A stretch of 47,081 nucleotides of DNA from a virus. Made by a program: the position numbers and the translations under genes. The first letter of the stretch is position 1. Every line of letters begins with the position of its first letter. The stretch spans positions 1 to 47,081 of the IMG/VR virus record IMGVR_UViG_3300044716_000390; one strand, written 5' to 3'. The notes beneath the pieces were generated by a model. It saw nothing but the letters and a program-made list of their open reading frames with translations, was not told the origin of the DNA and did not search any database. Of the stretch, positions 10,018-40,374 are shown piece by piece.

Positions 10018-11441
10018 TGGCAACCGCAAAACAACCACCATTTCCAGATCCACCTCTTGAGGTTGGAGTTCCACAATATCCAACGCCAAATATCCCTGAT
10101 TTTTATACAAAGAATGGGCATATCATTCTTGTTGAAAAGGTAAATGCAGAAAAGGGAAGCTACAACCCACAGCCACTTGATGGTAGCGTTGTTTATGCTG
10201 GAAGAGATGCGAGTAAGTGGCCATCCAATCTTTACCTTGTTGCTGAACAAACAGAGCCTACTGGTAAGTTTGTATTTAGGATTTGGGCAAATGACAGAAC
10301 GCTTGCTTCACAAGATCCTTGGAATTACGGAATTGACTACAGCTTGGACGATCCAACCAAGCCGATCTACACACGCGAGTATATCGTGCCCCGCTCACAA
10401 TATGCCGCAGTTAGCATTGGTTCAGTAGATCCCGTTTTCGGTGGGACTGCAAAGATCAGTAAGCAGTCCATGCAGGAGCTTGAGGACGGCAATCCACTAC
10501 GCTCTAGGCACGTTAGGGTTCAGCGGGTTTATGAAACCATCCCAAGTGCCGCAATTTCTGGTCAGTCTGTAAACAAGTACGGCTCTGTAGACACCACGAT
10601 CAAGCAGATCGTCCTTCCATCATCCACCGCCTCCACATCACAGACTCAAGGTCAGATTGGAGGGATTGACCAGTTTCTTGTTTCTGATTCAATTAACCCA
10701 GTAAGTGCGGCCAAGTCAGAGGAACAGAAGGTGGTAATGAGTCAGCCGCCTAGCGTTATTACCTATGAAATCACGCAGGATCTAGCTGTGGTTAGAACAA
10801 CTACAGACATGATTTTGAGGCAGAACTTAACTGTGCCTCCAATCCCCGGCACTACTGGATATGCGGCATTGCTTGACGTGAGCGATGAGGACGTTGGATT
10901 TCCTTGGATCAGAAGGTCTTCCAAAAGTCTCCTAACATCTGGAAGCACAGTTATTGTGCCTCCTCCTCGCGTTGAGTTTAAGACAATTAACTATGAATTT
11001 CCCGGCATCATCTATTCTTGGCAAGCCAAGCAGGGAACAACTGAAAATGACGTTACGACATCACCAACTGCCAATCTTTCATTCTTTAACAACAGGTATC
11101 CTCTGTCGTTAACTGTGTCGGCTAGGCACGTTATCACCTACCACACTTCTGCACAGGATTTGTCAGACCTTCAGTATTTCTCTGTTATTACCCAACCTTG
11201 GGCTTTGAAGTTCTTCAATATCCCAAGGAACATGATCCATCCCCCAGCCCCAGTAACACTAAGGGGGCAATCTGTTCAGTCTGGAGGAATTGACATTTTG
11301 ATTAGCGGAGGTCAAGGTAGCACTCCGTCCAATTATATCCCCGGACAAGAAATTCTCATTGGCGGGGATTGCGAGCTATGGCAGGGTGGGATATATATGA
11401 AGCAACTAATCTACGTTAAAGAACCTCCAACCACGCTATAA
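10017..11441 (+). CDS. Putative virion structural protein (474 aa)
   Basis: 474 residues, family not recognised. The N-terminus is Pro-rich (PPFPDPPLEVGVPQYPTPNI); the rest is beta-rich with many Ser, Thr and Val, and has no signal peptide or membrane segment. Length, composition and position between the ejection protein and the capsid gene suggest a tail-hub, nozzle or decoration-type component. The ATG overlaps the stop of the giant gene (TAATG), so translation is probably coupled, which may keep the two products in proportion. Confidence 0.5.
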   Translation: MATAKQPPFPDPPLEVGVPQYPTPNIPDFYTKNGHIILVEKVNAEKGSYNPQPLDGSVVYAGRDASKWPSNLYLVAEQTEPTGKFVFRIWANDRTLASQDPWNYGIDYSLDDPTKPIYTREYIVPRSQYAAVSIGSVDPVFGGTAKISKQSMQELEDGNPLRSRHVRVQRVYETIPSAAISGQSVNKYGSVDTTIKQIVLPSSTASTSQTQGQIGGIDQFLVSDSINPVSAAKSEEQKVVMSQPPSVITYEITQDLAVVRTTTDMILRQNLTVPPIPGTTGYAALLDVSDEDVGFPWIRRSSKSLLTSGSTVIVPPPRVEFKTINYEFPGIIYSWQAKQGTTENDVTTSPTANLSFFNNRYPLSLTVSARHVITYHTSAQDLSDLQYFSVITQPWALKFFNIPRNMIHPPAPVTLRGQSVQSGGIDILISGGQGSTPSNYIPGQEILIGGDCELWQGGIYMKQLIYVKEPPTTL

Positions 11442-16070: not shown

Positions 16071-16724
16071 ATGCCTACCTATTTCCCAGAAAACAACACC
16101 CCTTGGCAGAATGATGACGTAACGAGGAGCTTGCAGAAGATCAACGGACTTCTTCTTTCTGGAAACGTCCCAGTATCTCTTGCCGCAGGAACCAACAACA
16201 TTGGTGCAGTTACTTCCAATAACTCGCTTATTGAGCGTGTTGCCTCTTTTACTCGTCCAGCCGATACCACTACCTATGCAAGCGGTGATCTTGTTGCAAA
16301 TAACACAACCGCAGGATCAGTAGTTCCGCTTACTTTTACTACTGTAACTAGGAGTGCTGGAGATTCCGTAAGAATTGAAAGGGCTAGGATTAACACTAGT
16401 AATGCGCTTTTGACAAACGCCAGCTTTAGGCTTCACTTGTTTGAAACAACTCCAGTACCAACTGTTGGTGACAACGGGGTATTTAATACTGCTGGAGTGC
16501 TTGCTACATCTGGGATAGATGGATACCTTGGCAATTTCTCCATTACGCTGTCTAACTCTGGAACTACTGGATCTAGCGGAAGAGGGGTTCCTGATGTTGG
16601 AAGTGCTATTATTGCAACTCCTGCAACTGGAACGTCTATCTTTGGGTTGCTTGAGGTAACTGCGGCATATGTTCCCGTGAGTGCGGCTACCTTTACAGTT
16701 TCGCTTGAGGGTTATCGTCCTTAA
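16071..16724 (+). CDS. Virion protein with fibre-type N-terminal module
   Basis: 217 residues. The first 32 (MPTYFPENNTPWQNDD, then RSLQKINGLLLS) match the start of the 429-aa protein at 20122 almost residue for residue, while the rest differ. The remainder is Thr/Ser/Ala/Gly-rich and beta-predicted, like fibre shafts or tips. The shared start is best read as a particle-attachment module and the variable remainder as a tip. It opens the fibre region after the capsid unit. Confidence 0.6.
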   Translation: MPTYFPENNTPWQNDDVTRSLQKINGLLLSGNVPVSLAAGTNNIGAVTSNNSLIERVASFTRPADTTTYASGDLVANNTTAGSVVPLTFTTVTRSAGDSVRIERARINTSNALLTNASFRLHLFETTPVPTVGDNGVFNTAGVLATSGIDGYLGNFSITLSNSGTTGSSGRGVPDVGSAIIATPATGTSIFGLLEVTAAYVPVSAATFTVSLEGYRP

Positions 16725-20121: not shown

Positions 20122-21411
20122 ATGCCAGCATATTTTCCAGAGAATAATACGCCTTGGCAGAATGATGACTCTCATAGAAGCCTCCAGAAGATCAATGATC
20201 TTCTGCTTTCATCTGATGAGGTTCTAGGCAACGCTGACTTTACTAGCAAGGGAAGACTAAAGGTTAGCCCATACCAGACAGTCTTCTTCAACACATTCCA
20301 GTATGGGAAGGAGACGGATGTTTGGGATGAGTCAACTGCGAATGGAGGCGTGGCTACTCACGACCCTACTGGATCAGAGGTTGATATGGCAGTTACTAGC
20401 ACGCTTAACAGCGAGGTTATCCGTCAGACAATCCACACCATGCGGTACATTCCAAGCCGCACTTCCACGCTTTCTTTTTCGGTAAAACTCAATCTTCCAG
20501 TTGCAGGAATCCGTAAAAGGTTTGGACTCTTCAATGGGTCGGATGGGTTCTATTTCGAGGATGATGGATCAGGAGATTACTTCTGTTGCATCATCAACAG
20601 CGGCGGGACTCCATCGCTTCAGCGGGTTGGTAGGGCGCAATGGAATGGCGATAAGCTGGACGGAAATGGGCCTAGTGGCGTAATAGCAGACCCAACAAAG
20701 CAACAGATGGTTAGCTTTGAGTATGAGTGGTATGGTGCAGGTCAGGTAAAGTTTGGGTGGGTCATTGATGGGAAGACAATCATCGTTCACACCTTCAATA
20801 CAGCCAACGTCCTTGTTAATGCTTGGAGCCGAACCCCATTCCTTCCCATCCGTATTGAGATCAAAAACACTACTGGCGGTCAAGCTGGTGGGCCTTTCTA
20901 TATTTACCAAGGGTCAAACTCGCTGATTTCTGAAGGGGAAACAGAGAAGCTTGGCATCGCACAGAACATTCAAACTGCCATTACTGGGCTTGATACTGGC
21001 GCGGCCAATACCTACAGCCCATTGATTTCCATTAGGCTTAAGGCGACGCAGTTACAGGGCATTGTGTTGCCCTCTTACTTCCAAGTAGCCACGATTGATA
21101 ATACCAACGTCTATTACAGGCTGGTGAGGAACGTCACCCTTACTGGCGGTACTTGGAACGATATGCCAGATGCCAACAGCTTCGCTCAATACAATGTTAC
21201 CTCAACATCCTTTACTGGCGGCACCACTCTTGACGCAGGGTTTGTTATTGGAGGTAGTGGAGGAGGCCCAATTCGCATTGACAAGGACACTCAATTCCAG
21301 ATTGGCAGAAGCTCCATTGGAACAGTTAGCGACACCTTGACATTGGTGGCGGCGGCATCTACATCTAACAAAAACGCAATTGCATCAATGACATGGATAG
21401 AACAAAGGTAA
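20122..21411 (+). CDS. Second fibre-type protein with the shared N-module
   Basis: 429 residues. The N-terminus (MPAYFPENNTPWQNDD, then RSLQKINDLLLS) repeats that of the 16071 gene. Residues about 60-260 form a beta-rich domain that looks jelly-roll-like (STLSFSVKLNLPVAGIRKRF, then GLFNGSDGFYFEDDG), suggesting carbohydrate or protein binding. The C-terminus is again strand-rich. It lies directly before the lysis genes. A particle with two fibre-type tips on the same attachment module is inferred. Confidence 0.6.
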   Translation: MPAYFPENNTPWQNDDSHRSLQKINDLLLSSDEVLGNADFTSKGRLKVSPYQTVFFNTFQYGKETDVWDESTANGGVATHDPTGSEVDMAVTSTLNSEVIRQTIHTMRYIPSRTSTLSFSVKLNLPVAGIRKRFGLFNGSDGFYFEDDGSGDYFCCIINSGGTPSLQRVGRAQWNGDKLDGNGPSGVIADPTKQQMVSFEYEWYGAGQVKFGWVIDGKTIIVHTFNTANVLVNAWSRTPFLPIRIEIKNTTGGQAGGPFYIYQGSNSLISEGETEKLGIAQNIQTAITGLDTGAANTYSPLISIRLKATQLQGIVLPSYFQVATIDNTNVYYRLVRNVTLTGGTWNDMPDANSFAQYNVTSTSFTGGTTLDAGFVIGGSGGGPIRIDKDTQFQIGRSSIGTVSDTLTLVAAASTSNKNAIASMTWIEQR

Positions 21412-22100: not shown

Positions 22101-22536
22101 GGACAGGATCATTCCATTCCTACTCAAGTGGGAGGGAACCAAGCTCGATCTTCATCCCAATGACGCAGGAAACTACGTCAATGGAAAGTTGGTGGGCACG
22201 AAGTATGGCATCGACGCTCGCTCACATCCCAAGGAGGACATTCCGAACATGACGGCTGAAAGAGCAACAGACATTTATTGGAATGAATATTGGGTGAAGT
22301 ATGGTTGCGATCACCTTCCACAAAACTACGACTGGGCATTCTTCGACGCTTGCGTGAACTGTGGGTTTGGCAGGGCTATGAAGATCGAGAAGGTTTCTGG
22401 ATTGAATGTAAAAAAATTCATGGATGAGAGAGACGCTTTCTATCATCGCCTCGTTGAGAGAAGACCAGCCAGTAAGGTTTTTTTGAAGGGTTGGCTGAAC
22501 AGGACAAGAGACCTACGAAAGCACGTTTTAGCTTGA
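22084..22536 (+). CDS. Endolysin, GH108-type N-acetylmuramidase
   Basis: 150 residues from ATG 22084, overlapping the holin end by 17 bp. FLLKWEGTKLDLHPNDAGNY contains the catalytic Glu (E17) in the K-W-E-G context of GH108, followed by GTKYGIDARSHPKEDIPNMT and IYWNEYWVKY, both family signatures. DWAFFDACVNCGFGRAMK matches the putative C-terminal peptidoglycan-binding part. There is no signal peptide, so export must depend on the holin. It would cleave the glycan strands of the cell wall at the end of infection. Confidence 0.8.
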   Translation: MTKRFKDRIIPFLLKWEGTKLDLHPNDAGNYVNGKLVGTKYGIDARSHPKEDIPNMTAERATDIYWNEYWVKYGCDHLPQNYDWAFFDACVNCGFGRAMKIEKVSGLNVKKFMDERDAFYHRLVERRPASKVFLKGWLNRTRDLRKHVLA

Positions 22537-23091: not shown

Positions 23092-23310
23092 ATGGAAGAG
23101 ACATCACCACAAAATCCGCACTCATTCAAGGTCGGTAAACAAAGCGGGAACAACACGACTGTATCCATTGAGGTTGACGATGATTTCGCGCTTGAGGAGG
23201 TGCTAGAGGCGTTTGAATCATTCCTCTACGCCATTGGGTACAGGCTACCAAGCGGGGCAGTCATTGGATACGAATACGAGGATGGAGGCCCAAAACCACC
23301 ACTAAATTAA
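23092..23310 (+). CDS. Conserved small phage protein (DDDxxLEEVLEAF type)
   Basis: 72 residues from ATG 23092; a TTG at 23074 is the alternative. VDDDFALEEVLEAFESFLYA, followed by IGYRLPSGAVIGYEYED, matches a helical motif common in small phage proteins of unknown function. It is the first gene of the rightward early-type block. The stop is followed directly by the next ATG, with no gap. Confidence 0.6.
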   Translation: MEETSPQNPHSFKVGKQSGNNTTVSIEVDDDFALEEVLEAFESFLYAIGYRLPSGAVIGYEYEDGGPKPPLN

Positions 23311-23529
23311 ATGATTGCCATCGTTAATATCGGAGGAGGGGATGAATCCAATCCTTTAGGAGAAAGAACATACGAGGTTCGCATTAACCGAGAAGTCATT
23401 GCCACCTTCAAGCACAAGAGAAGTGACGGGCTGGGCGCTTGCCTTCTTGAAGCGTCTAAAGCCGTGGAGCGATACAAGTGGCTGGCAGTAGAAGAGTTTA
23501 TGCAAGCCATTAACCACACCAACAAATGA
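23311..23529 (+). CDS. Conserved small phage protein (MIAIVNIGGGDESNP type)
   Basis: 72 residues. The start MIAIVNIGG, the strand TYEVRINREVIATFKHKRSD and the helix LGACLLEASKAVERYKW recall a family of small phage proteins of unknown function with the same order: beta, extended, helix. It abuts the preceding gene and overlaps the next one by four bases (ATGA). Function not known. Confidence 0.6.
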   Translation: MIAIVNIGGGDESNPLGERTYEVRINREVIATFKHKRSDGLGACLLEASKAVERYKWLAVEEFMQAINHTNK

Positions 23530-23828
23530 CCACCACCACCGACACACCGCGAACGGATGCCGCTAAATCCTATTGGGACTCAGCAGAAAGGGAGAATTGC
23601 GTCTCAATCGTATTGGCTAGAGAGCTAGAACTAGAAGCCGTAACCTACAAAAACGAAGCCCTCTCTCTGAGAGACAGCCACGATCTCCTTTACAGGGATT
23701 ACCAGAAGCTAGAGGCCGAGGTCGAGAGGCTTGACCAGATGGTTGAATGGTTCATCGAGAACGCTCCACACTTCACACTCGCACAATTCAACAAACACCA
23801 AAGAACCCTTAACTCCACCGACAAATGA
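23526..23828 (+). CDS. DTPRT-family coiled-coil protein, copy 1
   Basis: 100 residues. It opens with DTPRTDAAKSYWDS, an N-terminal motif shared by four genes here, then a long charged helix (RELELEAVTYKNEALSLRDS; LEAEVERLDQMVEWF) that should form a coiled coil. Bases 23556-23830 are nearly identical to 25378-25652 (two substitutions in 275 bp), so this gene is a recent duplicate of the 25354 gene. Start ATG overlaps the previous stop (ATGA). Function unknown; small coiled-coil phage proteins often act as adaptors or inhibitors, which here is only a possibility. Confidence 0.65.
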   Translation: MTTTTDTPRTDAAKSYWDSAERENCVSIVLARELELEAVTYKNEALSLRDSHDLLYRDYQKLEAEVERLDQMVEWFIENAPHFTLAQFNKHQRTLNSTDK

Positions 23829-24055
23829 ACACCGACGCAAACAACGAGGTCGCAAGGCTCAGGGAGCTGAAAAAAATAGAGAGTCAGCGTTACTCTGCCG
23901 CTGTGTCTATCCAGACGGCTAAAGTAAAATTAGACGAAGCTCTCAAACTGGGAATGGCCTGTAATTGGGAAAGCACAACGCTTGCTTTGAGCGAAGCGAT
24001 ATCGCTACTCCGATCCGCACGAAAAATTACAATGATGCAAACTTCCGAAAAATGA
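23825..24055 (+). CDS. Small helical protein (76 aa)
   Basis: 76 residues, mainly helix (ARLRELKKIESQRYSAAVSI; LKLGMACNWESTTLALSEAI), with a basic Ser/Arg-rich end. The N-terminus (MNTDANNEVARLRE) resembles a degenerate DTPRT-family start. ATG overlaps the preceding stop (ATGA). Not recognised. Confidence 0.5.
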   Translation: MNTDANNEVARLRELKKIESQRYSAAVSIQTAKVKLDEALKLGMACNWESTTLALSEAISLLRSARKITMMQTSEK

Positions 24056-24133
24056 ACCCCGACACAAACAAAAACCTGTAAAAATGCCCAAGCGGAAATC
24101 GACAAGCTATACTACGACCTACTGAACAAATGA
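24052..24133 (+). pseudogene. Remnant of a duplicated gene end
   Basis: After an ATGA start there are only nine codons (24052-24081), then another frame reads QAEIDKLYYDLLNK and stops at 24133. The last 42 bases (24092-24133) repeat 24436-24477, the end of the next gene, with one substitution. The piece has no start of its own in that frame, so it looks like the tail of a deleted or truncated copy left by recombination. It overlaps both neighbours by ATGA. Confidence 0.55.
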
Positions 24134-24477
24134 GCACCCTATTACAACGCGAGGAATCTAAAGCCCTCATTCAAATAGAATCTTCCCAGCTAGAGTTCCG
24201 TAGAAAACGAACAGGGGTGAACTGGGTTAAATGGGTGAACTGGTTGCCTTCTTGGAGGGGAGATATAGAAAAATCGCTTGACGTATATGATTTCAGAATC
24301 GCCCCCGCGACAGAGGAAACCCGCGAAGGAGTCACAATGGACGAGTGGTACAACGGCTTCTCGCTTGCTGATGCGACAAAACTAATGCGACTCGCCCCCG
24401 CGACAGAGGCAACCCACGAAGGAATCACGATGGACGCGGAAACCGACAAGCTATACTACGACCTACTGAACAAATGA
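24130..24477 (+). CDS. Small protein with internal repeat (115 aa)
   Basis: 115 residues. The middle and end contain two copies of a 43-bp unit (24301-24343 and 24394-24436, four differences), read as RIAPATEETREGVTMD and RLAPATEATHEGITMD. The first 40 residues are basic and Trp-rich (GVNWVKWVNWLPSWRGD). The last 14 residues equal those in the remnant upstream. No family recognised. The repeats suggest slippage or unequal exchange, and the gene may be evolving quickly. Confidence 0.5.
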   Translation: MSTLLQREESKALIQIESSQLEFRRKRTGVNWVKWVNWLPSWRGDIEKSLDVYDFRIAPATEETREGVTMDEWYNGFSLADATKLMRLAPATEATHEGITMDAETDKLYYDLLNK

Positions 24478-24584
24478 AACAAACTGAAATCAAACAGCGA
24501 ATCGGCATTGCGTTGTGCACTTACTTATTAATGTGCGTTTGCTTCGGCATCGCTAGTTTAATTGTCCACCTGCTTAAACACTAA
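24474..24584 (+). CDS. Tiny membrane protein (36 aa)
   Basis: ATG 24474 overlaps the preceding stop (ATGA). The 36-residue product has a short polar start, a central hydrophobic stretch (IALCTYLLMCVCFGIASLIV) and a basic end (HLLKH): one membrane segment. It fills the gap before the next ATG at 24587. Size and coupling are typical of phage membrane micro-proteins that affect host membrane processes; function unknown. Confidence 0.5.
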   Translation: MKQTEIKQRIGIALCTYLLMCVCFGIASLIVHLLKH

Positions 24585-24586
24585 AA

Positions 24587-24841
24587 ATGACAACCGACAC
24601 ACCACGCACAGAGGCCTTTGGAAATAACCTAGTTAAATGCTACTGCCCTCGCTGCATTGTTGGCGCACATGACAACATCCAACTTGCCGCTCAATACAGA
24701 AAACACGCTGAGTGGCGAGAACGAGCCGAGCGAGCAGAGGCAGAGGTTGAGAGGCTGAAGGAAAAGTTGAAACACGCTGTCTATTTATTAAAAAGTTATA
24801 ATCCATCGTACTCTGATCTTTTTGAAAAAGAATTTAAATAA
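24587..24841 (+). CDS. DTPRT-family protein with CYCPRC motif
   Basis: 84 residues. Starts TTDTPRTEAFGNN, then CYCPRC gives a Cys cluster that could bind zinc, and a charged helix follows (AERAEAEVERLKEKLKHA), the same EAEVERL heptad core as in its relatives. C-terminus is aromatic and basic. One of four DTPRT genes in this block. Function unknown; the Cys pair is a difference from the other members. Confidence 0.6.
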   Translation: MTTDTPRTEAFGNNLVKCYCPRCIVGAHDNIQLAAQYRKHAEWRERAERAEAEVERLKEKLKHAVYLLKSYNPSYSDLFEKEFK

Positions 24842-24859
24842 AAACACCCAATAAAAATT

Positions 24860-25357
24860 ATGAACTACAAAGAATTAGCAAAAGATATTCTCCAGCTACA
24901 CACGCCAGATCCTCAAGTAATACTGAAGCTCGCCAGAGAACAGCAGGAAACACTCAAGAAATTTGACGAGTCATTTAAGGATGGTGTCGAGGTCTTAGCT
25001 AAGGCTCACGCTCAACTCATCGCCGCACAGGAGTCCGAGGCCGTCTGGAAAACTGTGGCTGACAAGGCAGACCAGAGGCGGTTGGAAGCAGAGTCGCGTC
25101 TCGCGGAAGCAGAAGACCTCATCAAGCGAGGACATGATGGCTGGCAGAAAGCCGAGGCAGAGGTCGAGAGGCTGAGGGCCGAAGTAACTCTCTATAAGGG
25201 CTACACCAGAGGATTCGGAATCCTCCATTGTGCCGCATACGGAGAACAGCACTTTGGCAAAAAACTCTTGCATCCCGAACATTACGACCTCCTTGAGAAA
25301 GCAGGTTGCCGCATGGATGCATACAAAAAAGCAACCCTCAACCCAACCAGCAAATGA
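24860..25357 (+). CDS. Long coiled-coil protein (165 aa)
   Basis: 165 residues, mostly helix: DFxES-type start, then SESxxE-like runs (RLEAESRLAEAEDLIKRGHD; AEAEVERLRAEVTLYKG), ending in a globular patch with His and Cys (GFGILHCAAYGEQHFGK). It shares the EAEVERL core with the DTPRT proteins but not their head. Its stop overlaps the next DTPRT gene (ATGA). Function unknown. Confidence 0.55.
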   Translation: MNYKELAKDILQLHTPDPQVILKLAREQQETLKKFDESFKDGVEVLAKAHAQLIAAQESEAVWKTVADKADQRRLEAESRLAEAEDLIKRGHDGWQKAEAEVERLRAEVTLYKGYTRGFGILHCAAYGEQHFGKKLLHPEHYDLLEKAGCRMDAYKKATLNPTSK

Positions 25358-25650
25358 CAACCGACACACCACGCACCGATGCCGCTAAATCCTATTGGGA
25401 CTCAGCAGAAAGGGAGAATTGCGTCTCAATCGTATTGGCTAGAGAGCTAGAACTAGAAGCCGTAACCTACAAAAACGAAGCCCTCTCTCTGAGAGACAGC
25501 CACGATCTCCTTTACAGGGATTACCAGAAGCTAGAGGCCGAGGTCGAGAGGCTTGACCAGATGGTTGAATGGTTCATCGAGAACGCTCCACACTTCACAC
25601 TTGCACAATTCAACGAACACCAAAGAACCCTTAACTCCACCGACAAATGA
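25354..25650 (+). CDS. DTPRT-family coiled-coil protein, copy 2
   Basis: 98 residues from ATG 25354 (ATGA overlap). From GATGCC at 25378 onward it is a near-exact copy of the 23526 gene: a silent C/T change and one Lys-to-Glu change (QFNKH versus QFNEH). The head MTTDTPRTDAAK differs slightly from copy 1 in its first residues. Two almost identical genes 1.8 kb apart show a recent duplication or transfer within a recombining array. Confidence 0.65.
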   Translation: MTTDTPRTDAAKSYWDSAERENCVSIVLARELELEAVTYKNEALSLRDSHDLLYRDYQKLEAEVERLDQMVEWFIENAPHFTLAQFNEHQRTLNSTDK

Positions 25651-25889
25651 ACCACGAAACCGACACACCGCGAACTACACGCACACGAATGGAAACTGCT
25701 CACTTGCTTTGTGACTCGGATGATTTCGAGGGTGTCATATCAACGCTTAAAAAAGAGGAGGCAGAACTGGAGCGCGAACTCGACGAAGCAAGGGCCGAAC
25801 TCGCTGAACTCTGGTCACGCTTCGATAAGCAGATGGAAGCGGAAGCCGAGGTCGAGAGGCTGAAAGATGAACGAATCTATTCCTACTAA
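25647..25889 (+). CDS. DTPRT-family protein (80 aa)
   Basis: 80 residues. Opens with TDTPRTTRTRMETAH, followed by a long acidic helix (LKKEEAELERELDEARAELA; AEAEVERLKDE) ending in RIYSY. It is the fourth family member and overlaps the previous gene by ATGA. The end lies inside the start of the next gene (23-bp overlap). Function unknown. Confidence 0.6.
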   Translation: MNHETDTPRTTRTRMETAHLLCDSDDFEGVISTLKKEEAELERELDEARAELAELWSRFDKQMEAEAEVERLKDERIYSY

Positions 25890-26082
25890 AACTAAAATGA
25901 AAACACTATTCGGAAAATGGGTAAGAGCAGAATACGCAGAGCGTCTTGAGAACGAACTGGCGATTGCCAATCGGGAAAGGCAGGAAGCGATTGACAGGGC
26001 TTCATACTTTTCCAACGAAGTAGGGATGCGAGACATTCTGATAAAGAGGCTAGAAAACGAAATAAAAGAAAATCAAAAATAA
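25867..26082 (+). CDS. Small coiled-coil protein (71 aa)
   Basis: 71 residues, helical and charged (AEYAERLENELAIANRERQE; KRLENEIKENQK). ATG 25867 overlaps the previous gene by 23 bp; an in-frame ATG at 25897 (MKTLFGKWVRAEYAERL) is an alternative start giving 61 residues. Not a DTPRT gene, but its EAxxRLENE helix is similar in style to the array. Function unknown. Confidence 0.5.
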   Translation: MNESIPTKTKMKTLFGKWVRAEYAERLENELAIANRERQEAIDRASYFSNEVGMRDILIKRLENEIKENQK

Positions 26083-26510: not shown

Positions 26511-27245
26511 ATGGAAACCACACCACAACAGAAAGCATACTCATCGGCTCTAGTGGCCGCTATCGGGGAACTATCCAATGTTCCGAAAACCGCAAACAAT
26601 CCGTACTTCAAGAGCAAGTATGCTCCTCTGGATGCGATCATTGACGCAACTCGACCAATCATGGCAAAGCATGGTCTGGCAGTAACTCAACAGCCATTGT
26701 TCATGGATGGCGCGGCTGGAGTTGAGACCACGATCATGCACAAGGATGGTCACAGCACGACTACCACGCTACTGCTTCCTCTCAAGGATCAGTCGCCACA
26801 GGGAGTTGGGTCTGCGATCACCTACGCTCGTCGCTACGCACTAGCGGCTGTCCTTGGCGTTGCGTCAGAGGATGACGATGACGGCAACGTAGCAGAAGGA
26901 AAGCGGCCTGTTGATTCCCCCAGACCAGCCATTGCAAAGGTAATGGACAAGAACCCCAGCGCTCGTCCTGCTGGTAACGTGACTGCTACTTGGAGGGGAG
27001 TGCTACCAACGCAAGCCAAGATCGCCGCACAGAGCAAGGAAGGCTCTGCCAAGAAATGGACACTCTACTCCGTGGAGTTCAATGACAACGGCAAGGTTAT
27101 TGAGGCAATGACATTTGATGAGAAGCTGTTCATTGCGGCAACCGACTTCGGATCTAATGGAACGCTGGTTGATGCTGGCGTTGCTGTAGGAAAGAAAGAT
27201 CCTAGCAAATGGGAGCTAGTAACGCTAACGCCTAATGAAGCCTAA
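26511..27245 (+). CDS. erf: ERF-family single-strand annealing protein
   Basis: 244 residues. The N-terminal 150 show the Erf pattern: ALVAAIGELSNVPKTANNPY, followed by FKSKYAPLDAIIDATRPIMA, then GLAVTQQPLF and QGVGSAITYARRYALAAVLG. These proteins anneal complementary single strands in phage recombination, usually with an exonuclease; the RecB/Cas4-like gene at 35919 is the candidate partner. The C-terminal 90 residues are Lys/Pro-rich and end in a beta segment. It overlaps the metallophosphoesterase gene by 11 bases. Likely early gene. Confidence 0.8.
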   Translation: METTPQQKAYSSALVAAIGELSNVPKTANNPYFKSKYAPLDAIIDATRPIMAKHGLAVTQQPLFMDGAAGVETTIMHKDGHSTTTTLLLPLKDQSPQGVGSAITYARRYALAAVLGVASEDDDDGNVAEGKRPVDSPRPAIAKVMDKNPSARPAGNVTATWRGVLPTQAKIAAQSKEGSAKKWTLYSVEFNDNGKVIEAMTFDEKLFIAATDFGSNGTLVDAGVAVGKKDPSKWELVTLTPNEA

Positions 27246-37110: not shown

Positions 37111-37304
37111 CCACTCCATACACAGAAAAGAACTTCAACGCCATGCTTGACAAGCTTTCCGAAGTGATGGCACAACGCAATGCGGCAATGATCCTAGCCA
37201 AAGCCGCAGTTGACGGGGCAGATAGAATGGAGATGCAGGAAGCCTACGAACTACTCAAAACAGAAATCAGCAAAAAAAATGACAACAACACCAGCCAGCC
37301 TTGA
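37107..37304 (+). CDS. Small helical protein (65 aa)
   Basis: 65 residues from ATG 37107 (ATGA overlap); an in-frame ATG at 37098 would make it MGTMTT. Helix: NFNAMLDKLSEVMAQRNAAM, then EMQEAYELLKTEISKKND. The end overlaps the helicase start by 26 bases. Unknown function. Confidence 0.5.
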   Translation: MTTPYTEKNFNAMLDKLSEVMAQRNAAMILAKAAVDGADRMEMQEAYELLKTEISKKNDNNTSQP

Positions 37305-38520
37305 CGCAGAGAAAGCATTCCTTTCTTGCGCGATCCAGAACATTAGCATTCTCAACGAGGCGGCAGATTATGCCGCTCCAAAGCTGTTCCACCACCCGTG
37401 TCACAAGAGAGTTTTTGAATCGGCATTGGAGTTATGGAAGGAAGGAAGAGATTGCGATCTAGTCACGCTCACAGATGCTATGTCCAATGCAGGAACATTG
37501 GATGACGCAGGAGGGGCGGCATTCCTAACGGAGTGCTTCATAGCCCCGGCAGTCACGGGCAACTGGCGCGAATACCTAGAGATCCTTCGCCACAAGCACA
37601 CGGCACGACTGGCCATCTCTGCCGCTGAACGCATCATCGCTTCAGCACAAAACCCATCCGAGGCAGGGGAATTGAGCGAGGTAGTCCAGAAGGCTTTGGT
37701 TGCCGTAGCCGCTGATGCGGAAAGCAAGGGGCGCATTGAATCGCTCAAGGAGGTTGCTCTAAACAGGGTCAGCGCATACGAGGAAATCTTCAAGAACAGG
37801 GGAAGGCTGATTGGCGTTACAACTGGCTTTAAGCCATTGGACGACATCACAGGTGGATTCCGAGAAGGACAACTGATCGTAATCGGTGCCGCTACCAAGG
37901 GTGGCAAGACCAGCATGGCAGTCAACATGGCGACAAGGGCCGCAAACGCTGGTCATGCCGTTGGATTCATTAGCCTTGAGATGAGTAGTGGGGAGTTGTT
38001 TGATCGTTTCGTTGCCTCCTACGGAGGGGTTGATGTGAGCGTTCTTTCCAAGGCACCGACATCGCAAGATATTGCCAACATTGGCAGGGCCGCACACCAA
38101 GCCTCGTTGCTACCGATCTACATCCGTGATGAGGGAGACGTTAATCCGCTTCAGCTTCGTGCCGCCATGCGCCGTATGTGCGCCGTGCATAAAACCCGCA
38201 TAATCGTCGTAGATTACATCCAATTGCTCTCCCCTACCGACCGCAAGGACAGCCGCGAGCGACAGGTTGCAGAGGCTTCTAGGACGCTTAAACAGCTTGC
38301 CAAGGAGCTAGGCATTACCATAATTGCACTCACCCAGCTTAACGCTGATGGAGCGAGCCGAGAGTCAAGAGCAATAGAACATGATTGTGACCTTTTTCTG
38401 GTCATTGAACGTGACGATGAAGGCAACTGGTATCTGAACATTAAGCTTGCAAGAGCCTGTGGACGGGCTAGAATACCTCTTGAGTTTCGTGAAAGCTATA
38501 TGCGATTCGACGAAAAATAA
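37279..38520 (+). CDS. DnaB-type replicative helicase
   Basis: 413 residues from ATG 37279. N-terminal helical domain (DAEKAFLSCAIQNISILNEA), then RecA-like core: Walker A GAATKGGKTS at about 203-212, Walker B IIVVDYIQLLSP near 308, and sensor/finger LTQLNADGASRESRAIEHDC near 353. It unwinds DNA at the fork; no primase or polymerase was found in the window, so host enzymes must join it. It follows small genes and precedes the SSB-like gene. Confidence 0.85.
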   Translation: MTTTPASLDAEKAFLSCAIQNISILNEAADYAAPKLFHHPCHKRVFESALELWKEGRDCDLVTLTDAMSNAGTLDDAGGAAFLTECFIAPAVTGNWREYLEILRHKHTARLAISAAERIIASAQNPSEAGELSEVVQKALVAVAADAESKGRIESLKEVALNRVSAYEEIFKNRGRLIGVTTGFKPLDDITGGFREGQLIVIGAATKGGKTSMAVNMATRAANAGHAVGFISLEMSSGELFDRFVASYGGVDVSVLSKAPTSQDIANIGRAAHQASLLPIYIRDEGDVNPLQLRAAMRRMCAVHKTRIIVVDYIQLLSPTDRKDSRERQVAEASRTLKQLAKELGITIIALTQLNADGASRESRAIEHDCDLFLVIERDDEGNWYLNIKLARACGRARIPLEFRESYMRFDEK

Positions 38521-39015: not shown

Positions 39016-39291
39016 ATGAACACAATAATGAAATCCAAAGCAGACGCAGTAGTGGCACACGATGCGCTATTCAAGGTCAGCATCACACAGGCAGAACACG
39101 CAGGGTTGGATGAGATCCGAATCTCTGTTCCAAGGGCTAGGGCAATTTACAACGATTTGATTGCGCTCAAAAAAGCGGTTGAATCACCGTCGCGCAGTAT
39201 GAAACAGCCAGCATATTTTGACAGGCTGGACTCCATATTTTCCCAGCAAACGGAAGCAATCAACGAGGCAATGACCAAAATCCTAAAATGA
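39016..39291 (+). CDS. Helical protein (91 aa)
   Basis: 91 residues. HDALFKVSITQAEHAGLDEI, then VPRARAIYNDLIALKKAVES, helical and charged; alternate start ATG 39028. No family recognised. First gene after the terminator; overlaps the next by ATGA. Confidence 0.5.
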   Translation: MNTIMKSKADAVVAHDALFKVSITQAEHAGLDEIRISVPRARAIYNDLIALKKAVESPSRSMKQPAYFDRLDSIFSQQTEAINEAMTKILK

Positions 39292-40050: not shown

Positions 40051-40374
40051 ATGAGCAACCTAATCATTCCCGACGAATTCAAGACAGAGAACCCGTTTCA
40101 GTTTCCATTCCGTGCCGATGCGGATATGGTTCTGGACGCTAATGACAGGGGCGTTGCAAAGATTAGCGACCAAGCAGGGCCGCAAGAGGCATTGCGTATC
40201 GCCAAGTTGTTTGCCTCAGCCACAGAAAGCCTTTCATTCCTGCACGACATTGCGCAGTTTATTGAGGCGGCAACAAGGGGGCAGGATGGATATAACCACG
40301 GAGAAGAGGGGGAGGATAAATCCAACTGCGTCATTTGCTCCATCAACGCCTATATCGAAAACGTATTGAGCTAA
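40051..40374 (+). CDS. Small protein with CVIC motif (107 aa)
   Basis: 107 residues. RADADMVLDANDRGVAKISD in the first half, helix ALRIAKLFASATESLSFLHD, then an acidic loop and CVICSINAYIENVLS at the end, with a Cys pair that could bind metal. Not recognised. Overlaps the next gene (TAATG). Confidence 0.5.
   Translation: MSNLIIPDEFKTENPFQFPFRADADMVLDANDRGVAKISDQAGPQEALRIAKLFASATESLSFLHDIAQFIEAATRGQDGYNHGEEGEDKSNCVICSINAYIENVLS

Follow-up and report, generated by a model that had tools for sequence, protein, structure and literature searches.

How can small phage genes share one constant beginning and one recurring internal motif and yet encode largely different proteins? The question is raised by a cluster of short genes in a 47 kb record of an uncultivated virus (IMG/VR record IMGVR_UViG_3300044716_000390), the whole of which, 47,081 nucleotides (nt), is referred to here as the window. 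Other genes of the window encode a terminase, a DnaB helicase, an exonuclease, an endolysin and the annealing protein Erf, and its capsid and portal genes were assigned by size and conservation among relatives. The cluster, called the array below, is placed between the endolysin gene, which ends at 22536, and the Erf gene (Table 1). An earlier note on this DNA had seen in it a family of coiled-coil proteins with a constant DTPRT-containing start, the head, and had taken the combination of constant head and variable bodies to suggest a shared partner and diversification of the body. This combination is real and extends far beyond the window, but the main engine by which the bodies diversify had been missed. 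With a probability that we put at roughly 70%, the array represents a mobile, recombinationally shuffled set of genes of uncultivated phages that is built of interchangeable modules and fixed joints and is best read as encoding small accessory proteins.

The hinge and the breakpoints of module exchange

Genes of the family have the architecture head - module - hinge - (module - hinge)n - end module. In the protein, the EAEVERL motif marks the hinge; as DNA, the hinge is an element of 17 nt, GCCGAGGTCGAGAGGCT, that shows hardly any variation among synonymous codons. The DNA encoding EVERL, GAGGTCGAGAGGCT, has five matches with at most one mismatch in the window as compared to 0.00 expected, and across otherwise unrelated modules the hinge codons read GCC GAG GTC GAG AGG CTK. 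When all viruses are considered, the 17-mer by itself is unspecific, as it also matches high-GC phages that have different coiled coils containing LKAEVERL; the codon statistics were therefore drawn from head-bearing genes only. Within the hinge AGG makes up 90% of the Arg codons, as opposed to 14% elsewhere in the same genes; the respective values are 94% and 48% for GAG and 87% and 34% for GTC. Exactly GCCGAGGTCGAGAGG is found in 49 of 77 AEVERL copies, where the codon usage of the same genes would predict 0.29. In 26 array-bearing records nearly all matches to the 17-mer (at most one mismatch) lie within the array and on its strand, a single one-mismatch copy being located outside the array in G032, and the reversed control gave none. 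EAEVERL, described in the earlier note as a core within coiled coils, is beyond that a DNA-level hinge for the exchange of whole modules. Its constancy stems from repeated passage of exchanges through it, from selection acting on the DNA, or from the two together.

When the DNA of 125 non-redundant head genes was compared all against all, it revealed shared modules which in the best pairs are 94-100% identical in DNA over about 150-390 nt, end at the hinge and are followed by unrelated sequence. When breakpoints were counted from shared stretches of at least 90 nt and at least 85% identity, internal right ends fell at the hinge in both genes in 86 of 135 cases (about 23 expected) and internal left ends in 46 of 77 (14 expected). 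The right ends cluster 6-23 nt past the hinge start and the left ends within 6 nt of it, and therefore the overlap between exchanged pieces falls inside the hinge. Our results establish that exchange breakpoints are far commoner at the hinge and the head than elsewhere.

But could the hinge simply be a joint that the protein tolerates? Illegitimate recombination might occur anywhere, with selection keeping fusions that are in frame and in register, and the hinge would then be no DNA anchor at all. Two AlphaFold models show a low-confidence head followed by a single long helix that runs through the hinge, and the V and L of AEVERL are three residues apart, as in the a and d positions of a heptad, so that any two modules joined there would keep the coiled-coil register. 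A register-preserving joint inside a single helix is thus plausible. In addition, some breakpoints lie away from the hinge, and in L184 (position 2269) the head is fused directly to the hinge (MTTTDTPRTEVERL) at a shared CCGA, a fusion that needs just 4 nt of homology. A tolerated joint cannot, however, explain the near-fixed synonymous codons of the hinge, be it the preference for AGG or the excess of exact copies, and in the head, whose protein sequence is no less constant, the Thr codon is saturated (see below). We therefore regard an origin of the hinge purely as a protein joint as quite unlikely.

The head is constant as a peptide

The head is not a chance low-complexity start, an objection raised in the earlier note itself. 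The degenerate DNA pattern of DTPRT has four matches in the window as compared to 0.02 expected from dinucleotide shuffles, a scan of viral contigs for the DNA of TDTPRTDA returned 99 stretches, and the loci fetched contain 179 head genes, 129 of which are distinct and complete, including a few from chance matches in bacterial contigs. Retrieval by way of the hinge speaks against chance too. Because the genes had been collected by their head, hinge-fetched loci were used as an independent check on how constant it is; their 27 near-heads contain the T and the P in every case, the R in 25, the following T in 25 and the D, elsewhere replaced by E, in 24. DTPRT is located within eight codons of an ATG in 163 of 173 occurrences, and 163 of the 179 head genes begin with ATGA, an upstream open reading frame (ORF) ending there in 105 cases.

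Whereas the peptide is constant, its Arg codons vary (CGA, CGC, AGA, AGG), and at the position after the Arg the four synonymous Thr codons are used about equally, a pattern indicative of selection on the head peptide. This constraint fits a linear recognition motif. In the viral loci the two D codons are nearly fixed, the first being GAC in 118 of 126 and the second GAT in 104 of 110 cases; for this contrast with the free Thr codon we have found no explanation. One might argue that the head is kept for translation, in that an A/C-rich, G-poor start after ATGA aids initiation without a Shine-Dalgarno sequence and the peptide is incidental. Indeed, ...AACAAATGACAACCGACACACC is the sequence context of the starts, and ATGA coupling is seen in the majority of head genes. 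Then again, TPRT is constant as amino acids and free in its codons, with Arg in four forms and Thr in all four, and we see little likelihood that translation is what maintains the head.

One gene carries a doubled head, MTTDTPRTDTPRTD (L059, reverse-strand position 10273). A DnaB-like helicase of L181 (ORF ending at 1554) begins with MTTDTPKSDGAEKAFLSC, close to the head, and the helicase of the window (37210-38520) contains MTTTPASLDAEKAFLSC; the head may derive from a helicase start or the resemblance may be due to chance.

The strict head pattern had no match in 84,980 bacterial and archaeal genomes, and of the seven places in such genomes that a looser pattern detected only L117, a contig of a metagenome-assembled genome, resembles a family member. 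Isolate phages (INPHARED) contained no match to two array proteins nor to the window portal. Because of these negatives we consider the head-gene family essentially confined to uncultivated viruses, where each carrier phage holds one small array. In the literature searched TPRTDA appears in no text, and the matches to AEVERL are unrelated. A different small family of constant-head coiled-coil proteins (..QPEALRLAD.L..AAAELRRLH.EN..AEVERL), possibly a parallel system, is present in the high-GC phages L004, L142, L168 and L196.

Modules move between genes and between unrelated phages

Cutting the genes at their hinges yielded 44 recurring module families, 35 of which are linked in one network. 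Of the 31 families that have a module after them, 27 have at least two different ones there, and of the 24 that have a module before them, 23 do. The suspicion that the genes are untranslated is refuted by the 180 gap-free module pairs, all of which are in phase, and by a ratio of non-synonymous to synonymous substitutions (dN/dS) of 0.126; the modules are under purifying selection and conserved as protein. In the window, the gene at 25354 (first module m44) agrees with L091 at all 196 nt from head to hinge (100% identity), after which the two genes have wholly different end modules; the end module of the window gene recurs in L107 and L066, where other first modules precede it.

To judge how closely the carriers are related we grouped them using the portal, capsid and terminase of the window as probes. 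G004, G007, G023 and G027 match these probes at 72-96%, G030 at 31-36%, and G011, G015, G021, G028, G032, G034 and G035 at 21-30%; G005 and G008 are distant by the same measure and several long records have no match. Nevertheless, L072 (G027, whose portal is 92% to that of the window) shares 220 nt at 95.9% with L044 of G018, a 66 kb record in which no homologue of portal, capsid or terminase is detectable. Likewise, L017 (G004) and L059 (G021) have 263 nt in common at 94.3%, and L040 (G015) and L044 have 201 nt at 98%. Such high identity in diverged backbones shows that modules have passed from lineage to lineage in recent times. This establishes in-frame exchange of modules between genes and between unrelated phages.

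An origin in which a single ancestral coiled-coil gene was duplicated in tandem and its copies diverged, head and EAEVERL being the residues that stayed conserved, would account for genes 23526 and 25354, whose recent duplication is evident from 292 identical positions in 300 nt, but it is contradicted by the abrupt module boundaries, where complete identity over 196 nt gives way to unrelated sequence and the replaced part is found elsewhere on another module, so that divergence alone is insufficient and we give this explanation hardly any credence. Chimeric assembly that joined different phages at the repeated hinge, suggested by the fact that the carriers are metagenomic contigs and that no isolate phage matched the array proteins tried, is just as improbable, because the exact runs that hinges with unlike neighbours have in common all stay below 51 nt (at least 31 nt in 0.4% of pairs), shorter than the usual final assembly k-mers, and because several junctions, such as m2-m24-m13 and m36-m6-m9-m7, recur in different records with 3-18% DNA divergence; moreover, reading frames are intact and backbone-collinear empty sites are clean.

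Proposed mechanism

We propose that three fixed joints, the N-terminal linear head TDTPRTDA, the internal AEVERL hinge or hinges and often a stop/start overlap (AAATGA), would serve as short identical anchors at which exchange most likely proceeds through annealing or short-homology recombination during co-infection or co-replication, and that selection would afterwards retain the products that are in frame and in register. Candidate recombinases would be Erf in the window and RecT-like or other proteins in other carriers. The Erf gene adjoins the array in the window, and Erf of phage D3 has been found to recombine diverged DNA in lambda (PMC3945230).

Several points weigh against the reading of the array as a recombinationally shuffled set of accessory genes. 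The compared breakpoint pairs are not independent of one another, and shared DNA ends away from the hinge in 48 genes, so that the hinge is not obligatory; it is preferred as a breakpoint, which does not imply exclusivity. Erf is not present in every carrier: of 43 records with an array, many of which are fragments, 8 encode it. RecT is found in 2-4 of 23 records, and no single recombinase emerges. The anchors are short, the longest exact run between hinges with unlike neighbours having a median of 10 nt and a 99th percentile of 27, and anchors of this length lie below the usual comfort zone of homologous recombination. Finally, the part that concerns function draws solely on the anatomy of the proteins, as scans of the array proteins with Pfam, PHROGs and PADLOC returned only coiled-coil noise and scattered single matches. 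Given the few records with Erf or RecT and the short anchors, Erf as the shuffling recombinase is a suggestion.

A bolder version of this mechanism holds that the hinge persists within genes in order to promote exchange, as a recombination element dedicated to that purpose. Several unrelated lineages of uncultivated phages would share a pool of coding modules and assemble new coiled-coil proteins from it in frame, so that the viruses would carry a combinatorial library of proteins, and gene units would move as ATGA-to-ATGA cassettes. We consider this version unlikely.

Mobility of the array and of single genes

In the sister phages G023 and G027 the equivalents of window positions 23284 and 26076 are joined directly and the block between them is absent, and the array that these sisters do possess sits at a site which is empty in the window (Table 1). 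Moreover, G027 carries the 72-amino acid (aa) gene of the block on its own, inserted exactly at an ATGA overlap (window 39288-39291) and flanked by ATGA on both sides, where the corresponding genes of the window overlap directly without an insert. The window array is therefore an insertion, and the array as well as at least one single gene are placed differently in sister phages. Of the eight differences between the copies 23526 and 25354, four fall within the first 21 nt, that is, in the head, which is consistent with head exchange; the differences are not mainly at A, the base to which a diversity-generating retroelement would direct variation. The debris at 24052-24133, an aborted start with an orphan end box, fits ongoing rearrangement.

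Possible function

Tentatively, and with the odds against it, we suggest a role in host take-over or counter-defence. The genes would encode small accessory proteins that all dock to one partner through the disordered head, and changing specificity would come from the variable coiled coils, some of which contain Cys motifs. Evidence of a host partner was neither found nor accessible to the present analysis. Pfam and PHROGs searches with 43 diverse members gave coiled-coil noise and scattered single matches only, a search of PDB sequences with one member gave nothing meaningful, and known anti-phage defence families were represented by weak coiled-coil PADLOC matches only.

Relation to known systems

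Phage domain mosaicism, in which non-homologous proteins share near-identical fragments through recent exchange, has been described by Smug et al. (2023, PMC10684548), who state that a large reservoir in unknown and accessory proteins is not covered. The array displays both of its hallmarks, a fragment common to otherwise non-homologous proteins and recent, near-identical DNA. However, the examples given there, such as receptor-binding proteins and endolysins, are proteins whose domains are folded, whereas the array consists of tiny virus-only coiled-coil genes in which one and the same DNA joint connects many modules. Rad52-like phage recombinases, including Erf, exchange short diverged stretches and thereby make mosaics (De Paepe et al. 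2014, PMC3945230). The window array has in common with this relaxed recombination that the annealing protein Erf is encoded beside it, but whereas relaxed recombination exchanges wherever homology exists, the array seems to maintain short anchors in coding sequence.

In the KilA-N/Bro/Ant multigene families of DNA viruses a constant N-terminal unit is combined with exchanged C-terminal parts. The array differs from these in that its head comprises about eight residues and is predicted to be disordered, and neither the window proteins nor the 43 diverse members had a Pfam or PHROG match to KilA-N, Bro-N or ANT domains. With shufflons, integron cassettes and gene-conversion cassettes the array shares a library-like variation from interchangeable coding pieces; such cassette systems, however, switch at one expression site, whereas the pieces of the array pass between genes and phages. 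A search of the region for shufflon-type inverted repeats yielded only three chance-like inverted pairs of 76-78%, and the hinges are all on one strand.

Thus, while phage protein mosaicism (PMC10684548) and the recombinases that produce it are already known, the literature searched holds no description of a virus-only parts kit with a frozen coding DNA hinge and ATGA cassettes across unrelated phages. Accounts of mosaicism in phages usually place its boundaries between genes or between the folded domains of well-known proteins. The array, of which each genome has one, acts as a parts kit: with a head at the level of protein, a hinge at the level of DNA and overlaps of stop and start, modules can be exchanged in frame among phages whose structural genes are unrelated. 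Two questions are thereby made testable, namely whether short anchors are maintained in genes to ease recombination and to which common partner the disordered eight-residue head could dock. In addition, the 17-mer together with the head provides a handle for finding and annotating many small phage genes that are called hypothetical.

Organization of the array in the window

The observation made in the earlier note is confirmed. Between 23526 and 25889 four ORFs have a (T)DTPRT start, with ATGs at 23526 (TDTPRTDA), 24587 (TDTPRTEA), 25354 (TDTPRTDA) and 25647 (TDTPRTTR). The EAEVERL core is shared by all four and by the headless gene 24860-25357, whereas gene 24587 alone has the Cys motif KCYCPRC. 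ATGA overlaps are found at most starts of the array (23526, 23825, 24130, 24474, 25354 and 25647). Genes 24587 and 24860 lack this coupling, and 25867 overlaps the preceding gene by more than ATGA. For gene 25354 the mechanical ORF list begins at a TTG at 25306, the head start being the ATG at 25354. The first gene of the inserted block lies to the left of the limit that the earlier note had drawn.

Table 1. Features of the array and related sites, in window coordinates.
Feature	Position	Strand	Remarks
Whole inserted block, compared with sister phages G023/G027	23285..26075	.	
Headless 72-aa gene (MIAIVNIGGG...INHTNK), first of the block	23311..23529	+	Mobile one-gene cassette; also in related phage L072 6062-6280
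Head gene 1, 100 aa: head - m44 - hinge - m20	23526..23828	+	Near-identical to gene 25354
Head TDTPRTDA of gene 1	23538..23561	+	
17-nt hinge GCCGAGGTCGAGAGGCT, exact, in gene 1	23715..23731	+	
Headless 76-aa ORF (MNTDANNEVARL...), ATGA-coupled	23825..24055	+	
Remnant: aborted start MNPDTNKNL* and orphan end box (...YYDLLNK*)	24052..24133	+	98% repeat of 24436-24477
Headless 115-aa ORF with internal repeat (APATE.T.EG.TMD) and YYDLLNK end box, ATGA-coupled	24130..24477	+	
Hydrophobic 36-aa ORF, ATGA-coupled	24474..24584	+	3' end also upstream of head genes in L017, L077
Head gene 2, 84 aa, KCYCPRC: head - m19-like module - hinge - end module	24587..24841	+	
Hinge variant GCAGAGGTTGAGAGGCT in head gene 2	24740..24756	+	
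Headless 165-aa gene with hinge	24860..25357	+	First module precedes a different module in L122
Hinge with 1 mismatch (GCA for GCC) in gene 24860	25157..25173	+	
Head gene 3, 98 aa: head - m44 - hinge - m20	25354..25650	+	
17-nt hinge, exact, in head gene 3	25537..25553	+	
Head gene 4, 80 aa (MNHETDTPRTTR...)	25647..25889	+	
17-nt hinge, exact, in head gene 4	25845..25861	+	
Headless 71-aa coiled-coil-like ORF, last gene of the block	25867..26082	+	
Erf-family single-strand annealing protein, outside the array	26511..27245	+	Pfam ERF 4.6e-28
Empty site where sister G027 (L072 7354-8988) carries its own array	40373..40374	.	

Another constant head is seen in the tail region of the window, where the genes at 16071-16724 and 20122-21411 have the common start MP(T/A)YFPENNTPWQNDD..RSLQKIN.LLLS and differ in their bodies.

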